In this document: positions 595-7,304 of the stretch, piece by piece
Position numbering within the stretch: the first letter of the stretch is position 1
How the letters are laid out: every line of letters starts with the position of its first letter
Assembly: GCA_018268735.1 (NCBI GenBank)
Contig: JAFDWA010000050.1
Span: 1-8,986, forward strand
Length of the DNA: 8,986 nucleotides
Direction: 5' to 3'
DNA from: Actinomycetota bacterium
Lineage (GTDB): Bacteria; Actinomycetota; Acidimicrobiia; Acidimicrobiales; Microtrichaceae
The notes under the pieces: generated by a model
Seen by the model: only the letters and a program-made list of their open reading frames with translations
What the model was told of the DNA's origin: nothing
Database searches by the model: none
Position numbers and translations under genes: made by a program

Positions 595-1203
595 GTGAGC
601 CCGACCACGCCCCCCACCCGCTCCGCCGGCGACGAGCGCGTGACGAAGGAGACCCGGATCTCCGTCACCCTCGACGTCGACGGCGACGGCACCACCGACT
701 GCCGGACGGGTCTGCCGTTCTTCGATCACATGCTCGACCAGATCGGCCGTCACGGCGGCTTGGACCTCACGCTGCACGCGGAGGGCGACGTCGACGTCGA
801 CGCGCACCACACGGTCGAGGACTCAGGCATCCTCCTCGGCGAGGTGCTGCGTCGGGCCCTCGGCGACAAGCGGGGGGTGAGGCGCTTCGCCTCGATCCGG
901 GTGCCGCTCGACGAGGCGGTCGTGGAGGCGGTGCTCGACCTGTCGGGCCGCCCGTACCTCCACTACGAGATCGACATCCCCGGCGAGAAGATCCTCGGCG
1001 ACCCGCCGTTCGATCCGCAGCTGATGGAGGAGTTCTGGCGGGCGTTCGTGATGTCGTCGGGCATCACGCTGCACCTGACGCTCGTGCGTGGCCGCAACAC
1101 CCACCACATCATCGAGGCGTCGGTCAAGGCAGCCGCGCGAGCGCTGCGCGACGCCGTGCGCGTCGAGGGCACGGCGTTGCCGTCGACGAAGGGGACGCTG
1201 TGA
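595..1203 (+). CDS. hisB: Imidazoleglycerol-phosphate dehydratase
   Basis: This enzyme dehydrates imidazole glycerol phosphate to imidazole-acetol phosphate using paired Mn ions. It is the monofunctional IGPD type, without the fused phosphatase seen in enterobacteria. The metal-binding and fold motifs are all present: TKETRISVTLDVDGDG near the N-terminus, FFDHMLDQIGRHGG, the DAHHTVEDSGILLGE metal motif, and near the C-terminus RGRNTHHIIEASVKAAARALR with the second His-His cluster. The GTG at 595 gives 202 residues, close to the usual length of about 200, and places DERVTKET where homologues have a similar lead-in. A GTG at 523 would add 24 atypical residues and lies in the loop of the upstream hairpin. 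A GTG at 640 would trim the N-terminus just before TKET. No start has a good Shine-Dalgarno. It overlaps hisH by four bases (GTGA). Confidence 0.95.
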   Translation: MSPTTPPTRSAGDERVTKETRISVTLDVDGDGTTDCRTGLPFFDHMLDQIGRHGGLDLTLHAEGDVDVDAHHTVEDSGILLGEVLRRALGDKRGVRRFASIRVPLDEAVVEAVLDLSGRPYLHYEIDIPGEKILGDPPFDPQLMEEFWRAFVMSSGITLHLTLVRGRNTHHIIEASVKAAARALRDAVRVEGTALPSTKGTL

Positions 1204-1880
1204 GCGCACCTGTCGACGGACCGATGATCGCGGTGCTCGACTACGGGATCGGCAACCTGCGCTCGGCGGAGAAGGCCCTCGCGCACGTCGGAGCGAACGC
1301 TGTGCTGACCGCGGATCCCGATGTCGTGGCGGCCGCCGACGGCGTGGTCCTGCCCGGTGTCGGCGCGTTCGGACGTTGCCGTGAAGCGCTCACCGAGACC
1401 GGACTCGACGACGTCGCGCTCGATGCCGTCGCGTCGGGCCGACCGTTCCTCGGGATCTGCGTCGGCATGCAGCTGCTCTACGAAGGCTCGGAGGAGGCAC
1501 CGGGCATCAGCGGTCTCGGCGTCCTGGCCGGCGACGTCCGGCGACTGCCACCGGGGGTGAAGCACCCGCAGATGCAGTGGAACCGGCTCGAACCGCTGAC
1601 CGAGTCGCCGTTGCTCGACGGCCTCGGTGAGCGGCCCTGGATGTACTTCGTGCACTCCTACGCTCCGGAGGCGACCGGTGACGTGATCGCGACCTGCGAC
1701 TACGGGGGGCAGGTCACCGCCGCTGCGCAGCGTGAGATGGTCATGGCGACGCAGTTCCACCCCGAGAAGTCCGGCGGCCCGGGCCTGCGGCTCCTGTCGA
1801 ACTTCGTGCACCTTGCCAGTACGACTCCGGGGACCGACGGCACGGTCCTCGACGCGGCTCCGTCCGGGCGGGTGCGGTGA
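1200..1880 (+). CDS. hisH: Imidazole glycerol phosphate synthase, glutamine amidotransferase subunit
   Basis: HisH hydrolyses glutamine and passes ammonia through HisF, which makes imidazole glycerol phosphate and AICAR. It is a class I (triad) glutaminase of 226 residues. VLDYGIGNLRS is at 12-22 and the oxyanion strand PGVGAF at 52-57. The nucleophile Cys87 lies in GICVGMQLLY, and His187 and Glu189 lie in QFHPEKSG. The usual P-H-M-G-W-N segment at the HisF interface reads P-Q-M-Q-W-N (123-128), a variant that spares the triad. The GTG at 1200 overlaps the hisB stop as GTGA and has AAGGGG at 1189-1194 as a well-spaced ribosome binding site. The ATG at 1224 is a possible alternative just before the conserved core. 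It ends at the hisA start, so translational coupling is likely on both sides. Confidence 0.95.
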   Translation: MSAPVDGPMIAVLDYGIGNLRSAEKALAHVGANAVLTADPDVVAAADGVVLPGVGAFGRCREALTETGLDDVALDAVASGRPFLGICVGMQLLYEGSEEAPGISGLGVLAGDVRRLPPGVKHPQMQWNRLEPLTESPLLDGLGERPWMYFVHSYAPEATGDVIATCDYGGQVTAAAQREMVMATQFHPEKSGGPGLRLLSNFVHLASTTPGTDGTVLDAAPSGRVR

Positions 1881-2617
1881 TGGACCTGTACCCGGCGATC
1901 GACCTGCTCGACGGACGCTGCGTCCGCCTCTACCAGGGCGACTACGGCCGCAGCACCGTGTACGGCTCGGACCCCGTTGCGCAGGCGCTCGCCTTCCAGG
2001 CCGAGGGTGCGCCGTGGGTCCACGTCGTCGACCTCGACGCAGCCCGCACCGGTGAGCCACGCAACCGGGACCTCGTCGCAGCGATCGCCGACGCCTTGGA
2101 CGTGCCGGTGCAGACCGGTGGAGGTGTCCGCAGCGTCGAGGCGGCCGAGGCGCTGTTCGCCGTCGGGGTGTCGCGCGTCGTGCTCGGCACCGCGGCGCTC
2201 GAGGACCCCGACCTCGTCCGACGCCTCGCCGAGTCGAACCCCGTCGCGGTCGGGCTGGACGCGCGTGGAACCGAGGTCGCGGTCCGGGGCTGGCTGGAGG
2301 GATCGGGCGCGGACGTCGTCGACCTTGCGGTCGCGTTCGGCGACGCCGGGGTCGACGCGCTGGTCGTCACCGAGATCGGTCGGGACGGGACCCTCGCCGG
2401 ACCGGATCTCGAAGGCTTGTCGCGCGTGCTCGCAGCGAGCTCGATCCCCGTCATCGCGTCCGGTGGGATCGGCACCCTCGACGATGTCCGCTCGCTCGCC
2501 GCGCTGTCGGTCGAGGGTCGGGCGCTCGCAGGGGCGATCACCGGACGAGCGGTCTACGAAGGAGCGTTCACCGTCGCCGAAGCCGTCGCCGCGACCCGCG
2601 ACGAGACAGCCACATGA
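1880..2617 (+). CDS. hisA: Phosphoribosyl-ProFAR isomerase (ordinary HisA type)
   Basis: HisA is a (beta/alpha)8-barrel isomerase that converts ProFAR to PRFAR, the substrate of HisF-HisH. From ATG 1880 it has 245 residues. Catalytic Asp8 lies in PAIDLLDG, phosphate-binding loops are QTGGGVRS (78-85) and ASGGIGT (193-199), Asp127 lies in VGLDARG, and Asp169 in TEIGRDGTLAG. The ATG shares its A with the hisH stop; an in-frame GTG three bases earlier would give a four-base overlap instead. Actinobacterial PriA, which also does the TrpF reaction, has Ser-Gly-Gly where this protein has Gly-Gly-Gly, and this one has the HisA-like RLYQGDYGRSTVYGS. I therefore expect a monofunctional HisA; this is inferred from motifs. 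The last residues, Glu-Thr-Ala-Thr, are encoded by the first, imperfect unit of the tandem repeat that leads into hisF. Confidence 0.94.
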   Translation: MDLYPAIDLLDGRCVRLYQGDYGRSTVYGSDPVAQALAFQAEGAPWVHVVDLDAARTGEPRNRDLVAAIADALDVPVQTGGGVRSVEAAEALFAVGVSRVVLGTAALEDPDLVRRLAESNPVAVGLDARGTEVAVRGWLEGSGADVVDLAVAFGDAGVDALVVTEIGRDGTLAGPDLEGLSRVLAASSIPVIASGGIGTLDDVRSLAALSVEGRALAGAITGRAVYEGAFTVAEAVAATRDETAT

Positions 2618-2667
2618 CCGAGACAGCCACATGACCGAGACAGCCACATGACCGAGACAGCCACATG
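2600..2667 (+). repeat. 17-bp tandem repeat, four units, joining hisA to hisF
   Basis: The unit ACCGAGACAGCCACATG occurs three times without error at 2617-2633, 2634-2650 and 2651-2667. An upstream unit at 2600-2616, inside the end of hisA, matches at 15 of 17 bases, differing only in the first two. Each unit ends in ATG, and each ATG is followed by A, giving ATGA at every junction. The last unit supplies the hisF start codon. The unit is 17 bp, one less than a multiple of three, so each unit steps the reading frame exactly as an ATGA overlap needs. It probably arose by slippage on an ancestral ATGA hisA/hisF overlap. Confidence 0.97.
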
Positions 2668-2668
2668 A
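2614..2668 (+). other. Chain of three overlapping six-codon ORFs (MTETAT) between hisA and hisF
   Basis: ATG codons at 2614, 2631 and 2648 each open the same ORF, Met-Thr-Glu-Thr-Ala-Thr then TGA (2614-2634, 2631-2651, 2648-2668). The first ATG overlaps the hisA stop (2615-2617), and each mini-ORF stop overlaps the next ATG as ATGA. The last stop overlaps the hisF ATG at 2665. A ribosome ending hisA could restart at each in turn and reach hisF. Each start has only a weak GAG about eight bases upstream. The reading frames are seen directly; their translation is inference. Confidence 0.55.
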
Positions 2669-3465
2669 CAGCCGTCGCTCGGGTGATCCCGTGCCTCGAC
2701 GTCGACGCCGGCCGTGTGGTCAAGGGCGTGAACTTCGTCGAGCTCCGCGACGCCGGCGACCCGGTGGAGCTCGCGGCACGCTACGACGCCGAAGGTGCCG
2801 ACGAGCTCGTGTTCCTCGACATCACCGCGTCCTCTGACGCGCGCGCCACGACCATCGACATGGTGCGCCACACCGCCGAGGAGGTGTTCATCCCGTTCAC
2901 CGTCGGCGGCGGCATCCGCAGCGTCGACGACGCCCGTCGCATCCTGCGTGCCGGTGCCGACAAGGTCGGCGTGAACACCGCAGCAGTCGACCGACCCGAG
3001 CTCGTGTCGGAGATCGCCGATGAGTTCGGCGCCCAGTGCGTCGTCGTCGCGATCGACTCGCGGTCACGCCGTTGCGAGCCCGACGGGACCCCCGGTGAGG
3101 GACCGCCGTTCCAGGTGTTCACCCACGGCGGACGCACCGCGACGGGCCTCGACACGATCGAGTGGGCCGCGCGCGTCGCAGAGCTCGGCGCCGGCGAGAT
3201 CCTGCTGACGTCCATGGACCGCGACGGCACCAAGGACGGCTTCGACGTCCCCGTGACCGCAGCAGTCAGCTCCACGGTGGGCGTGCCGGTCATCGCATCC
3301 GGCGGTGTCGGCACGGTCGCGCACATGGTCGAGGGGATCACCGACGCCGGTGCCGATGCGGTGCTCGCGGCGTCGATCTTCCACTTCGGCGAGCACACGA
3401 TCGCAGAGGTCAAGGCGGCGATGTCGGCCGCGGGGATCACGGTGCGTCCGGCTACGTTGCCGTGA
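2665..3465 (+). CDS. hisF: Imidazole glycerol phosphate synthase, cyclase subunit
   Basis: HisF is the barrel subunit that joins HisH-derived ammonia to PRFAR and releases imidazole glycerol phosphate and AICAR. The product has 266 residues, slightly above the usual 250-260. Catalytic Asp12 lies in [18 protein letters not shown] and Asp131 in VVVAIDSR. Phosphate-binding segments are FTVGGGIRS (78-86), [13 protein letters not shown] (182-194) and ASGGVGT (211-217). The start is well fixed: in this frame the upstream stop is the TGA at 2632-2634, and the only start codon after it before the conserved core is ATG 2665, formed by the last 17-bp repeat. There is no strong Shine-Dalgarno, so expression probably depends on ribosomes arriving from hisA through the repeat. 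Its TGA shares its A with the ATG of the next gene. Confidence 0.96.
3453..3458 (+). promoter_or_regulatory. TANNNT -10-like hexamer before the oxidoreductase gene
   Basis: TACGTT lies inside the end of hisF, six bases before ATG 3465. This spacing matches leaderless actinobacterial promoters, where transcription starts at or next to the start codon. The -35 region is hisF coding sequence with no clear TTGAC-like match, so this is suggestive only. Confidence 0.35.
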
Positions 3466-4403
3466 TGGACCTGCGCATCTTCACCGAACCCCAGCAGGGC
3501 GCCACCTACGACCAGCTCCTCGCCGTCGCCCGCCGAGCCGAGGAACGTGGCTTCGACGCCTTCTTCCGCTCCGACCACTACCTGTCCATGGGTGCGGTGT
3601 CTGGACTGCCGGGGCCGTCGGACGCGTGGATCACCCTCGCCGGCCTCGCCCGCGACACCGAGCGCATCCGCCTCGGCACGCTCGTCACCGCCGCCACGTT
3701 CCGCGCCCCGGGTCCGTTGGCGATCGCCGTCGCGAACGTCGACGCGATGTCCGGTGGGCGAGTCGAGCTCGGCATCGGTGCCGGTTGGTTCGAAGCCGAG
3801 CACGCCGCGTACGGGATCCCGTTCCCGCCGGTGGGGGAGCGCTTCGACCGCCTGACCGAGCAGCTCGAGATCATCGACGGCCTGTGGCGGACACCCGCCG
3901 GGTCGCGCTTCGGACACCACGGCGAGCACTACACGCTGACCGACTCGCCGGCGCTGCCCAAGCCGGTCCAGTCGCCACGCCCGCCGATCATCATCGGCGG
4001 GTCCGGCCCACACCGCACCCCCGCGCTCGTCGCGCGTTTCGCGGACGAGTACAACCTGGCGTGGGCCGACGTGGAGGCGACCCGGGCCCGCAACGAGACC
4101 ATCGATGCCGCATGCCGTGCCGCCGGTCGGGATCCGTCGACGGTGCTGCGGTCGGTCGCCCAGGTGCTCTGCGTCGGTGCCGACGAAGCCGAGCTCGCCC
4201 GGCGTGCCGGAGCGATCGGCCGGGAGGTCGACGAGCTCCGCGCCCACGGTCTCGCCGGCACGCCCGACGAGCTGATCGCCAAGGCATCGGCCTTCGCCGA
4301 CATCGGCATCAGTCGCATCTACCTGCAGGTGCTCGACCTCGACGACCTCGACCACGTCGACCTCGTCGCCGACGCGGTCATGCCGGCGCTCGAGCGCAAG
4401 TAG
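3465..4403 (+). CDS. Luciferase-like, probably F420-dependent oxidoreductase
   Basis: The product has 312 residues and belongs to the bacterial luciferase-like monooxygenase superfamily, whose actinobacterial members mostly use coenzyme F420. Visible marks are the N-terminal strand [38 protein letters not shown] (26-44), IRLGTLVTAATFRAPGPLA, the superfamily segment MSGGRVELGIGAGWFEAEH, the YGIPFPPVGERFDRLTEQLEII stretch, and RPPIIIGGSGPHRT. It resembles the subgroup I associate with Mycobacterium Rv1855c, but that comes from memory of the motifs. No substrate can be read from the sequence. ATG 3465 overlaps the hisF stop by one base (TGATG), and an in-frame GTG precedes it at 3462. A TANNNT hexamer six bases upstream suggests a second, leaderless transcript. 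A role in histidine synthesis is not known; it may simply travel with the operon. There is no signal peptide, so it should be cytoplasmic. Confidence 0.87.
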   Translation: MDLRIFTEPQQGATYDQLLAVARRAEERGFDAFFRSDHYLSMGAVSGLPGPSDAWITLAGLARDTERIRLGTLVTAATFRAPGPLAIAVANVDAMSGGRVELGIGAGWFEAEHAAYGIPFPPVGERFDRLTEQLEIIDGLWRTPAGSRFGHHGEHYTLTDSPALPKPVQSPRPPIIIGGSGPHRTPALVARFADEYNLAWADVEATRARNETIDAACRAAGRDPSTVLRSVAQVLCVGADEAELARRAGAIGREVDELRAHGLAGTPDELIAKASAFADIGISRIYLQVLDLDDLDHVDLVADAVMPALERK

Positions 4404-6923: not shown

Positions 6924-6926
6924 GCC

Positions 6927-6964
6927 AGCCGCCTGGGGAGCTGTCAGCCGCCTGCGGAGCTGTC
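6927..6964. repeat. 19-bp tandem duplication at the 3' end of the KOW-protein gene
   Basis: The unit AGCCGCCTGGGGAGCTGTC (6927-6945) is followed directly by a copy at 6946-6964 that differs at one base (G6936 against C6955). The second copy contains two of the three bases of the minus-strand stop at 6963-6965, so the duplication lies at and just beyond the end of that gene. It looks like a slippage product; no function is evident. Confidence 0.9.
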
Positions 6965-7304
6965 AGGCGCCGGTCGCTCCACATCCAGCGCCCACGCTGC
7001 GGTCCACCGAAGCGCTCGCCGTGGCACCGGGCGGTGCGGGTTCGGTCTGGATGCGCTGTGCCGACCTGGCGGGAACCGCTGGCTTGCGACCCACGTCCTG
7101 CGTGGTGGGCGACGAGGGGCTGATCGGCTCGAGCATGCTCTTGCGGATCTTGATGCAGCGGCCTCCCTCGGGCTGGCCTCTCGTGATCCCCACCACGACC
7201 ATCCGGTTGCGAGAGGTGCCGAGGACCCTTCCTCTCGCCCCTTCGAAGCGCCCGCCGATGATCCGGACCTCACGGTCCTGCCACGCTCTCCACAGTCGTG
7301 CCAT
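6963..7304 (-). CDS. Small protein with a KOW/SH3-like segment
   Basis: The predicted product has 113 residues. Residues 12-60 (REVRIIGGRFEGARGRVLG, then VVVGITR, then GGRCIKIRKSMLEPI) look like a KOW motif and small beta-barrel as in ribosomal L24 or NusG C-terminal domains: a V-x-I-x-x-G-x-F-x-G-x-x-G-x-V pattern followed by strands. The last 53 residues are rich in Pro, Ala and Ser and probably disordered. I chose ATG 7304 because GGGAG lies eight bases upstream; a longer frame reaching 7472 adds residues with no family signal. Codons such as AGA, GGA and TCT occur in the KOW part, unlike the strongly G/C-ending neighbours. It converges on trpE and lies 212 bp beyond the kinase stop. An RNA-binding or ribosome-linked role is a guess from the fold, and the family itself is not one I recognise. 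Confidence 0.6.
   Translation of the reverse strand: MARLWRAWQDREVRIIGGRFEGARGRVLGTSRNRMVVVGITRGQPEGGRCIKIRKSMLEPISPSSPTTQDVGRKPAVPARSAQRIQTEPAPPGATASASVDRSVGAGCGATGA

Follow-up and report, generated by a model that had tools for sequence, protein, structure and literature searches.

The junction between hisA and hisF in an acidimicrobial histidine operon consists of four identical 17-bp tandem repeats that form three minimal open reading frames (mini-ORFs) between the two genes, and this array probably functions as a termination–reinitiation relay that keeps hisF translationally coupled to hisA. This reading is drawn from the architecture of the junction and from analogy with known coupled gene pairs. 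The array lies in the window analysed here, an 8,986-bp stretch of DNA that is the entire contig C455 of a draft genome (767 contigs, 83% complete) from the order Acidimicrobiales. On the plus strand, hisA (1880..2617; 245 aa; TIGR00007, 1.7e-73) ends in ...RDETAT, with its TGA stop at 2615–2617 inside the first repeat copy, and hisF (2665..3465; 266 aa; TIGR00735, 7.8e-109) starts at the ATG at 2665. As the original prediction described, ATGA occurs at 2614, 2631, 2648, and 2665, giving four stop/start overlaps of 4 nt (−4 contacts) in series, from the hisA stop to the hisF start. The sequence and our chain script both place mini-ORF 1 at 2614..2634, its start overlapping the hisA stop by 4 nt and its stop overlapping the start of mini-ORF 2 (2631..2651), and mini-ORF 3 at 2648..2668, its stop overlapping the hisF start. 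All three are on the plus strand and share the sequence ATG ACC GAG ACA GCC ACA TGA, which encodes MTETAT.

Tandem Repeats Finder assigned the array to 2602..2669, with a period of 17, 4.0 copies, 100% matches, and a score of 136, the highest among 13 rows for the window. The units, read on the plus strand as CGAGACAGCCACATGAC, occupy 2602–2618, 2619–2635, 2636–2652, and 2653–2669. The 17-bp tandem repeat had been recognised in the original prediction, but its count of three perfect copies and an imperfect one arose from another phase; in phase CGAGACAGCCACATGAC, all four copies are perfect. The longest run of self-matches at periods of 5–60 was 51 nt, whereas it was at most 15 nt in 100 dinucleotide shuffles. 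Each unit contains the last four sense codons of hisA, the hisA stop, and the hisF start; therefore, every MTETAT mini-ORF ends in a hisA-like context (...DETAT). When we simulated one to seven copies by script, HisA remained 245 aa long and the chain to hisF stayed closed at every copy number, because 17 is of the form 3n+2. The 17-bp step thus suits ATGA coupling, as had been proposed, but it has no special fitness for it: any 3n+2 duplication across an ATGA yields the same back-to-back frame step, which is therefore an approximately 1-in-3 event and not in itself evidence of selection.

Several other roles for the array were considered and rejected. An RNA hairpin or known RNA element is disfavoured by the predicted folding, which was no better than that of shuffled sequences (z = +0.94; 167 of 200 shuffles folded at least equally well), by the absence of any Rfam match in the window at the gathering threshold, and by the absence of a terminator-like site at 2400–2900. 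A scan of the same interval for sigma-70-type promoter-like sites, which left other promoter types outside its scope, was also negative. A his leader-peptide attenuator is disfavoured by the lack of His codons in MTETAT and, again, of a terminator-like site. The array is not a phase-variable repeat switch, given that the chain to hisF is kept at one to seven units, and it is not a dispersed repeat: at up to two mismatches, the unit had four matches in its own 83% complete assembly, all inside the array (reversed-pattern control: one match). A function of the peptides themselves was also set aside; MTETAT, MIGxA, and the other mini-ORF peptides look unrelated by eye.

The array most likely arose in this lineage by tandem duplication of a single ancestral stop–start contact, because the only other genome of the same genus found by our searches (G001; HisF 89% identical) has one GTGA overlap between hisA and hisF and no repeat. 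The proposed comparison with relatives therefore found the contact conserved, as GTGA, and the array absent. The end of hisA is common to its nearest homologues, since the seven closest HisA proteins (95–96% identity; among the best 120 of 2,034 matches) have the same length and end in DETAP, DETAA, or EETAT, and the HisA start is supported by close homologues that begin with MDLYPAIDLL.

Ribosomes that finish hisA are predicted to pass stepwise, by serial termination–reinitiation, through the mini-ORFs to the hisF start. An unbridged gap of 47 nt would be predicted to remove most or all of the coupling, because, in the sections of PMC10666635 on native Escherichia coli pairs, coupling fell by 40–80% at a spacing of +14 nt and was nearly lost at +38 nt. 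According to the same sections, coupling needs no more of the upstream gene than its last 15 nt, and each 17-bp unit would supply about enough upstream sequence for one more round of termination and reinitiation. The dependence on a Shine–Dalgarno (SD) sequence varies, its removal ranging from fatal to coupling to without effect, depending on the gene pair, in the part of PMC6728339 consulted. With four successive steps, the overall yield would be the product of the individual efficiencies, so that hisF output might, hypothetically, fall with copy number; the main role of such a relay would be to preserve coupling, with any tuning as a side effect.

A second multi-copy array, reached via a duplicated-stop scan of 237 loci, lies between trpE and a gene with GCV_T domains in g50, a genus of another family. 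Among the 22 genomes of this genus examined (L331–L352), the junction contains no mini-ORF (direct contact) in six, one in four, two in seven, three in two, and four in three, the variation being between species. All 22 junctions have a continuous series of −4 or −1 contacts that connects the trpE stop with an in-frame start codon of the following gene; four chains begin with a −1 contact, and in two the chain is opened by TTG. The prediction that whole units could be gained or lost without uncoupling the genes is supported by this series, as it is by the one-to-seven-copy simulation. Of the 36 mini-ORFs in the 16 bridged arrays, 32 have exactly five codons and a 14-nt step, which is also 3n+2. 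The units have diverged: the TGA is invariant, which is partly a matter of ascertainment because units were identified by their intact contacts, and the ten nucleotides between contacts depart from the consensus at an average of 2.8 sites. When changes were simulated in the 16 bridged arrays, the chain survived 0.78 of random substitutions and 0.39 of 1-nt insertions or deletions (indels). Three genomes (G440, G445, and G148) carry altered units and the chain still closes, and the sequence of G434 (L340) reveals a single 68-bp tandem duplication of the trpE end and the start of the next gene, also 3n+2, which creates one mini-ORF of 23 codons. The g50 series is a better study system than the window. 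As a separate observation, the g50 unit at up to one mismatch was more frequent than its reversed control in the G227, G148, and G442 genomes (7 versus 2, 7 versus 1, and 8 versus 2, respectively); only two matches were exact, both in the G227 array, and the excess may reflect codon usage or a faint dispersed family.

Bridging of gaps by mini-ORFs was then compared across the order between stops that can also serve as restart sites and stops that lack a usual start codon. The sample comprised 112 loci (1.79 Mb) with 1,277 same-strand gene pairs, the genes and starts being taken from a simple caller of our own. Gaps of 5–100 nt were considered, in-frame direct contacts were removed alike in all stop classes, and a gap was scored as bridged when a chain from the upstream stop reached the called start. 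CTGA stops, which have the same geometry although CTG is not a usual start codon, formed the control. Bridges spanned 42 of 82 gaps after ATGA or GTGA and 24 of 135 after CTGA, and the rate tracked the strength of the start codon (ATGA 13/23, GTGA 29/59, TTGA 5/19, CTGA 24/135). The contrast was present at minimum gaps of 13 nt (34/70 versus 20/109), 20 nt (26/60 versus 20/104), and 40 nt (14/34 versus 12/70), with strata of guanine–cytosine (GC) content combined (odds ratio 5.0, p = 2.6e-7), after dereplication by homology cluster and family (0.466 of 68 versus 0.151 of 102; p = 5e-5, the smallest value obtainable with 20,000 permutations), and after dereplication per family (0.476 of 28 versus 0.136 of 27; p = 3e-4). 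It was seen both in his pairs (16/20 versus 1/11) and in non-his pairs (26/62 versus 23/124; p = 0.0013). An indel-perturbation null was discarded because its design in itself depresses relay rates.

A hold-out of 25 other acidimicrobial loci gave a similar contrast (9/20 versus 2/27; one-sided p = 0.0037). These loci remained after 12 of 37 acidimicrobial named loci had been left out (11 for shared sequence and one for length), and were analysed with the same scripts, using three GC classes of different width instead of four; they represent other genomes rather than other lineages, and one relay (L056) had been seen before. Pairing with the anti-SD sequence at the mini-ORF starts, a measure independent of the start calls, also distinguished relays from controls: the median was −5.0 kcal/mol in relays (n = 42) and −4.0 kcal/mol in the nine hold-out relays, versus −2.65 kcal/mol at unbridged ATGA/GTGA stops (n = 40), −2.1 kcal/mol in CTGA pseudo-relays (n = 24), and −2.85 kcal/mol at NTGA stops remote from the next gene. 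Mis-called start codons may account for part of the SD difference seen at downstream starts. Together with the g50 series, this enrichment of bridges after restart-capable stops lends comparative support to the reinitiation relay first proposed for the window. The general bridging pattern is seen only for this order, and mostly near the his–trp operon from which the sampled loci came. Within the CTGA class of the 112 loci, we also observed a slight excess of gaps equal to 1 mod 3 (69, versus 54 at 0 mod 3; 2 mod 3 is depleted by design); in this order, CTG may serve as a weak restart codon.

At the his junctions themselves, the relay count depends on which in-frame start is chosen. Between hisB and hisH, gaps of 5–100 nt occurred in 55 of 143 junctions, and relays crossed 33 of the 55 when the most downstream start was used and 37 when any start was allowed; in 30 of the 31 gapped junctions with NTGA on both flanks the relay led to the most downstream start, and in the remaining one to a nearer start. 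At gapped hisH–hisA junctions, relays were found in 4 of 27 under either choice. In family f10, mini-ORFs of 27, 17, 23, and 6 codons bridge the hisB–hisH junction at four loci of four genera (L153, L216, L237, and L244); the gaps crossed in four genomes of this family, in order of size, are 13, 46, 64, and 76 nt, and the relays likewise lead to the most downstream start. The hisB–hisH junctions of family f59 count for little, because their 10-nt gap also suits an SD sequence placed right after the stop. At the hisB–hisH junction of L229 (G130), the hisH start region is apparently duplicated, and we detected no chain leading to the downstream copy, a possible broken relay.

The hisA–hisF junction is a direct overlap in 119 of the 160 genomes of the order with hisA just upstream (192 examined). 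Among 19 gapped junctions, relays reached the most downstream start in 3 and any start in 11. Thirty loci were fetched for family f59; hisA lay upstream in 29, with a direct junction in 21 and a relay in the other 8, which all belong to genus g74. The g74 junctions have gaps of 27, 28, or 31 nt, and one or two mini-ORFs bridge eight of the nine that were readable (11 genomes searched, one without a HisF match and one without hisA upstream). At the ninth (G298, L267; compared with L266 and L268), hisA extends through the mini-ORF frame and ends in a direct overlap. A 1-nt indel might toggle g74 junctions between the relay and read-through states, with contact kept in both, because the alignment ascribes the read-through to one extra nucleotide; relay and C-terminal tail may thus be interconvertible. 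One further locus, L035 (CAMDAT010000006.1), is labelled Bifidobacterium breve, but its HisF shares 74% identity with that of the window and it has sequence in common with acidimicrobial loci; it is probably a mislabelled metagenome-assembled genome.

A scan for perfect arrays in 110 loci (1.50 Mb) found nothing besides the window, and a looser scan of 237 loci (2.90 Mb) listed eight. In two of these (L003 and L213), the chain reaches the called start, and in L135 it ends at a different in-frame start, located 57 nt upstream of the called start. L215 forms a relay only with a +1 spacing, and L321 has a frame-compatible duplication, but its chain misses the called start. There is no relay in L322, and the duplications in L222 and L044 do not coincide with a called gene pair. 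One-off duplications were found in G186 (20 bp, with a −4 contact, at a trpE junction) and in G039 (19 bp, with a +1 contact, at hisA–hisF); in the latter, the length equals the spacing modulo 3, a feature noticed afterwards, and the strict script found no relay.

A number of results weigh against a relay in the window or against its generality. SD pairing is weak at all four ATGs of the array (−3.0 kcal/mol each); the typical relay has stronger pairing, and the median for 306 direct overlaps is −6.1 kcal/mol, so that the window lacks the usual, though not obligatory, SD signal of coupled pairs. Relay starts as a group also have somewhat weaker SD sequences than direct overlaps (median −6.1 kcal/mol; p = 0.02). 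The intact array is by itself no proof of selection, because whole-unit copy changes keep the chain automatically, and 0.55 of simulated 1-nt indels in the array leave the chain intact. Chains were counted to any in-frame start, which is permissive, and the order-wide contrast rests on gene and start calls from our simple caller; it was not significant in the lowest-GC third (9/20 versus 13/45) and was weaker per homology cluster alone (0.312 of 41 versus 0.151 of 65; p = 0.016). Enrichment was absent from a set of 41 named loci, mostly proteobacterial (6/24 versus 21/90), from 20 evenly spaced regions of the same-genus G001 (1/8 versus 3/16, few cases), and from 23 short loci belonging to other Actinomycetota (0/4 versus 0/3, a small set). 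For 198 distinct hisA–hisF junctions with a start from all taxa (246 loci, from which 37 without hisA just upstream, nine duplicates, and one without a start were dropped), the script tallied 122 as direct, 11 as relays, and 66 as neither, the last group including many long proteobacterial gaps. Finally, a review (PMC12548453) cites reporter work in which spacings of up to +25 nt had little effect, and in which coupling was still partly present at +50 nt and more.

Some of these points are what a neutral product of slippage would leave, namely a tolerated duplication in which hisF is initiated de novo at 2665 and the mini-ORFs are a coincidence of frame. The last unit spans −12 to +5 of the ATG at 2665, so the local start region would be identical at any copy number; a 3n+2 length has a 1-in-3 chance; the four copies are identical and hence probably recent; and all four contacts are SD-poor. 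Strong independent initiation is nevertheless hard to reconcile with the weak hisF SD sequence (−3.0 kcal/mol) and the absence of a sigma-70-type promoter-like site at 2400–2900, and neither the unbroken g50 chains (22/22) nor the enrichment over CTGA stops would be expected if such bridges were meaningless. We consider this explanation rather unlikely. It is improbable that the array is a rheostat in which each step passes a fraction of the ribosomes, the number of units sets the HisF:HisA ratio, and slippage generates heritable variants. The preservation of the frame through whole-unit changes from one to seven copies and the range of zero to four mini-ORFs at one g50 junction, albeit between species, would fit such a device, but biosynthetic operons are not known as usual targets of phase variation. 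Assemblies can misrepresent short, perfect tandem repeats, and the source is a draft genome of 767 contigs, 83% complete, which raises the question of whether the true junction is single-copy. An assembly artefact is, however, very improbable: a normal short read can span the 68 bp of the array, a single contig contains all the copies and their reading frames are intact, and comparable arrays occur in other assemblies, from another genus (g50). The relay that keeps hisF coupled to hisA thus remains the reading we regard as probable.

The surrounding operon is compact. Upstream of the array on the plus strand, hisB, encoding imidazoleglycerol-phosphate dehydratase (598..1203, start approximate; NCBIfam HisB, 1.1e-72), overlaps hisH (1200..1880; TIGR01855, 9.1e-62) by GTGA, as read from the sequence at 1195–1212, and hisH overlaps hisA by 1 nt in GTGATG. 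Downstream, the hisF stop overlaps by 1 nt, again in GTGATG, the start of a gene for an F420-dependent LLM-class oxidoreductase (3465..4403, plus strand; TIGR03560, 1e-91), which serves here as context only. Within the run from hisB to this gene, hisA and hisF are the sole separated pair, and their 47-nt gap is made of the 17-bp repeats. The genes above the NCBIfam cut-off in the window were hisB, hisH, hisA, hisF, the oxidoreductase gene, and hisI; the best matches of trpE and a GroES-like gene were under the cut-off, and a sensor-kinase-like gene lies on the opposite strand. A second tandem array (6926–6971; 19 bp × 2.4, CAGCCGCCTGCGGAGCTGT) lies approximately 70 bp past the trpE stop, where there is no gene contact.

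The closest known system, by analogy, is that of the mycobacterial interspersed repetitive units (MIRUs), which occur in tandem copies with unit lengths near 77 and 53 bp (both 3n+2), a family consensus, and a strain-variable copy number. The window unit is 17 bp long and built from the local hisA end, rather than tens of base pairs long with a family consensus. In MIRUs, a small ORF is coupled to a gene at a −4 spacing (Supply 1997, as cited in the consulted part of PMC12548453), and the likeness is that the small ORF of the repeat is joined to its neighbours by a 4-nt stop/start overlap, as at 2614, 2631, 2648, and 2665. MIRUs, however, are dispersed and are described as apparently mobile, whereas the window unit is confined to its array (at up to two mismatches in an 83% complete assembly). 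The hisA–hisF array is a new form of stop–start coupling and not a MIRU, because it is confined to one locus instead of being dispersed, lies between two operon genes with contacts at both ends, and is serial, with mini-ORFs of five or six codons.

Other systems resemble the array in part. Small ORFs linked by RTGA are over-represented before mycobacterial genes, and in places the linkage is conserved over the peptide (Shell et al. 2015, PMC4633059); the RTGA contacts and the retention of linkage without peptide conservation are shared features, but the small ORFs in the sections available of that paper are the first ORFs of leaderless transcripts and coupled at one end, whereas the window mini-ORFs stand between operon genes, coupled at both ends and in series. 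Termination–reinitiation at overlapping pairs (PMC6728339, PMC10666635) likewise uses the ATGA contact, requires only a short upstream stretch, has SD-like motifs at its typical contacts, and involves a stop and a start that overlap or lie a few nucleotides apart, as in the four −4 contacts of the window; those are direct pairs, and a chain of gap-bridging mini-cistrons is not described in the sections obtained. In Enterobacteriaceae, about 13% of the ismORFs codirected with the downstream gene stop within 10 nt of it, and some 37% of these overlap it by 1–4 nt, with similar figures on the upstream side (excerpts of PMC11188072); ismORFs, however, have 15–70 codons and are treated as microproteins, and the excerpts describe no serial or two-sided relays. 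The tiny ORF mgtQ (PMC8092293, in part) also lies between operon genes and controls downstream translation, but it has its own strong SD sequence 51 nt past the upstream stop and alternative hairpins, whereas the window array folds no better than shuffles. Synthetic short leader ORFs (PMC13255528, in part) are alike in that a meaningless short ORF raises translation from the next start, but are engineered, single, and provided with a strong internal ribosome-binding site, unlike the window array. Literature searches limited to open-licence PubMed Central, partly viewed, found no description of serial intercistronic relays.

Tentatively, these observations may reflect a wider tendency in Acidimicrobiales, possible rather than probable in our judgement, to tolerate no gap between coupled genes: when a duplication or frameshift parts such a pair, throw-away relay cistrons, whose peptides are irrelevant, would keep the stop–start chain closed. 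Tandem-repeat relays would be the frame-safe form, their links gained and lost as quanta, and the hisA–hisF array would have been caught soon after its birth. The window, with three links, and g50, with zero to four at one junction, offer a natural dose series for the travel of ribosomes after termination and the loss per step. If the relay reading is true, distance statistics that score relay-bridged gaps as uncoupled would misplace them. Short operon gaps in this order would then often be chains of minimal cistrons, below ordinary gene calling, instead of untranslated spacers, and such chains would let a coupled pair survive an insertion at little cost.
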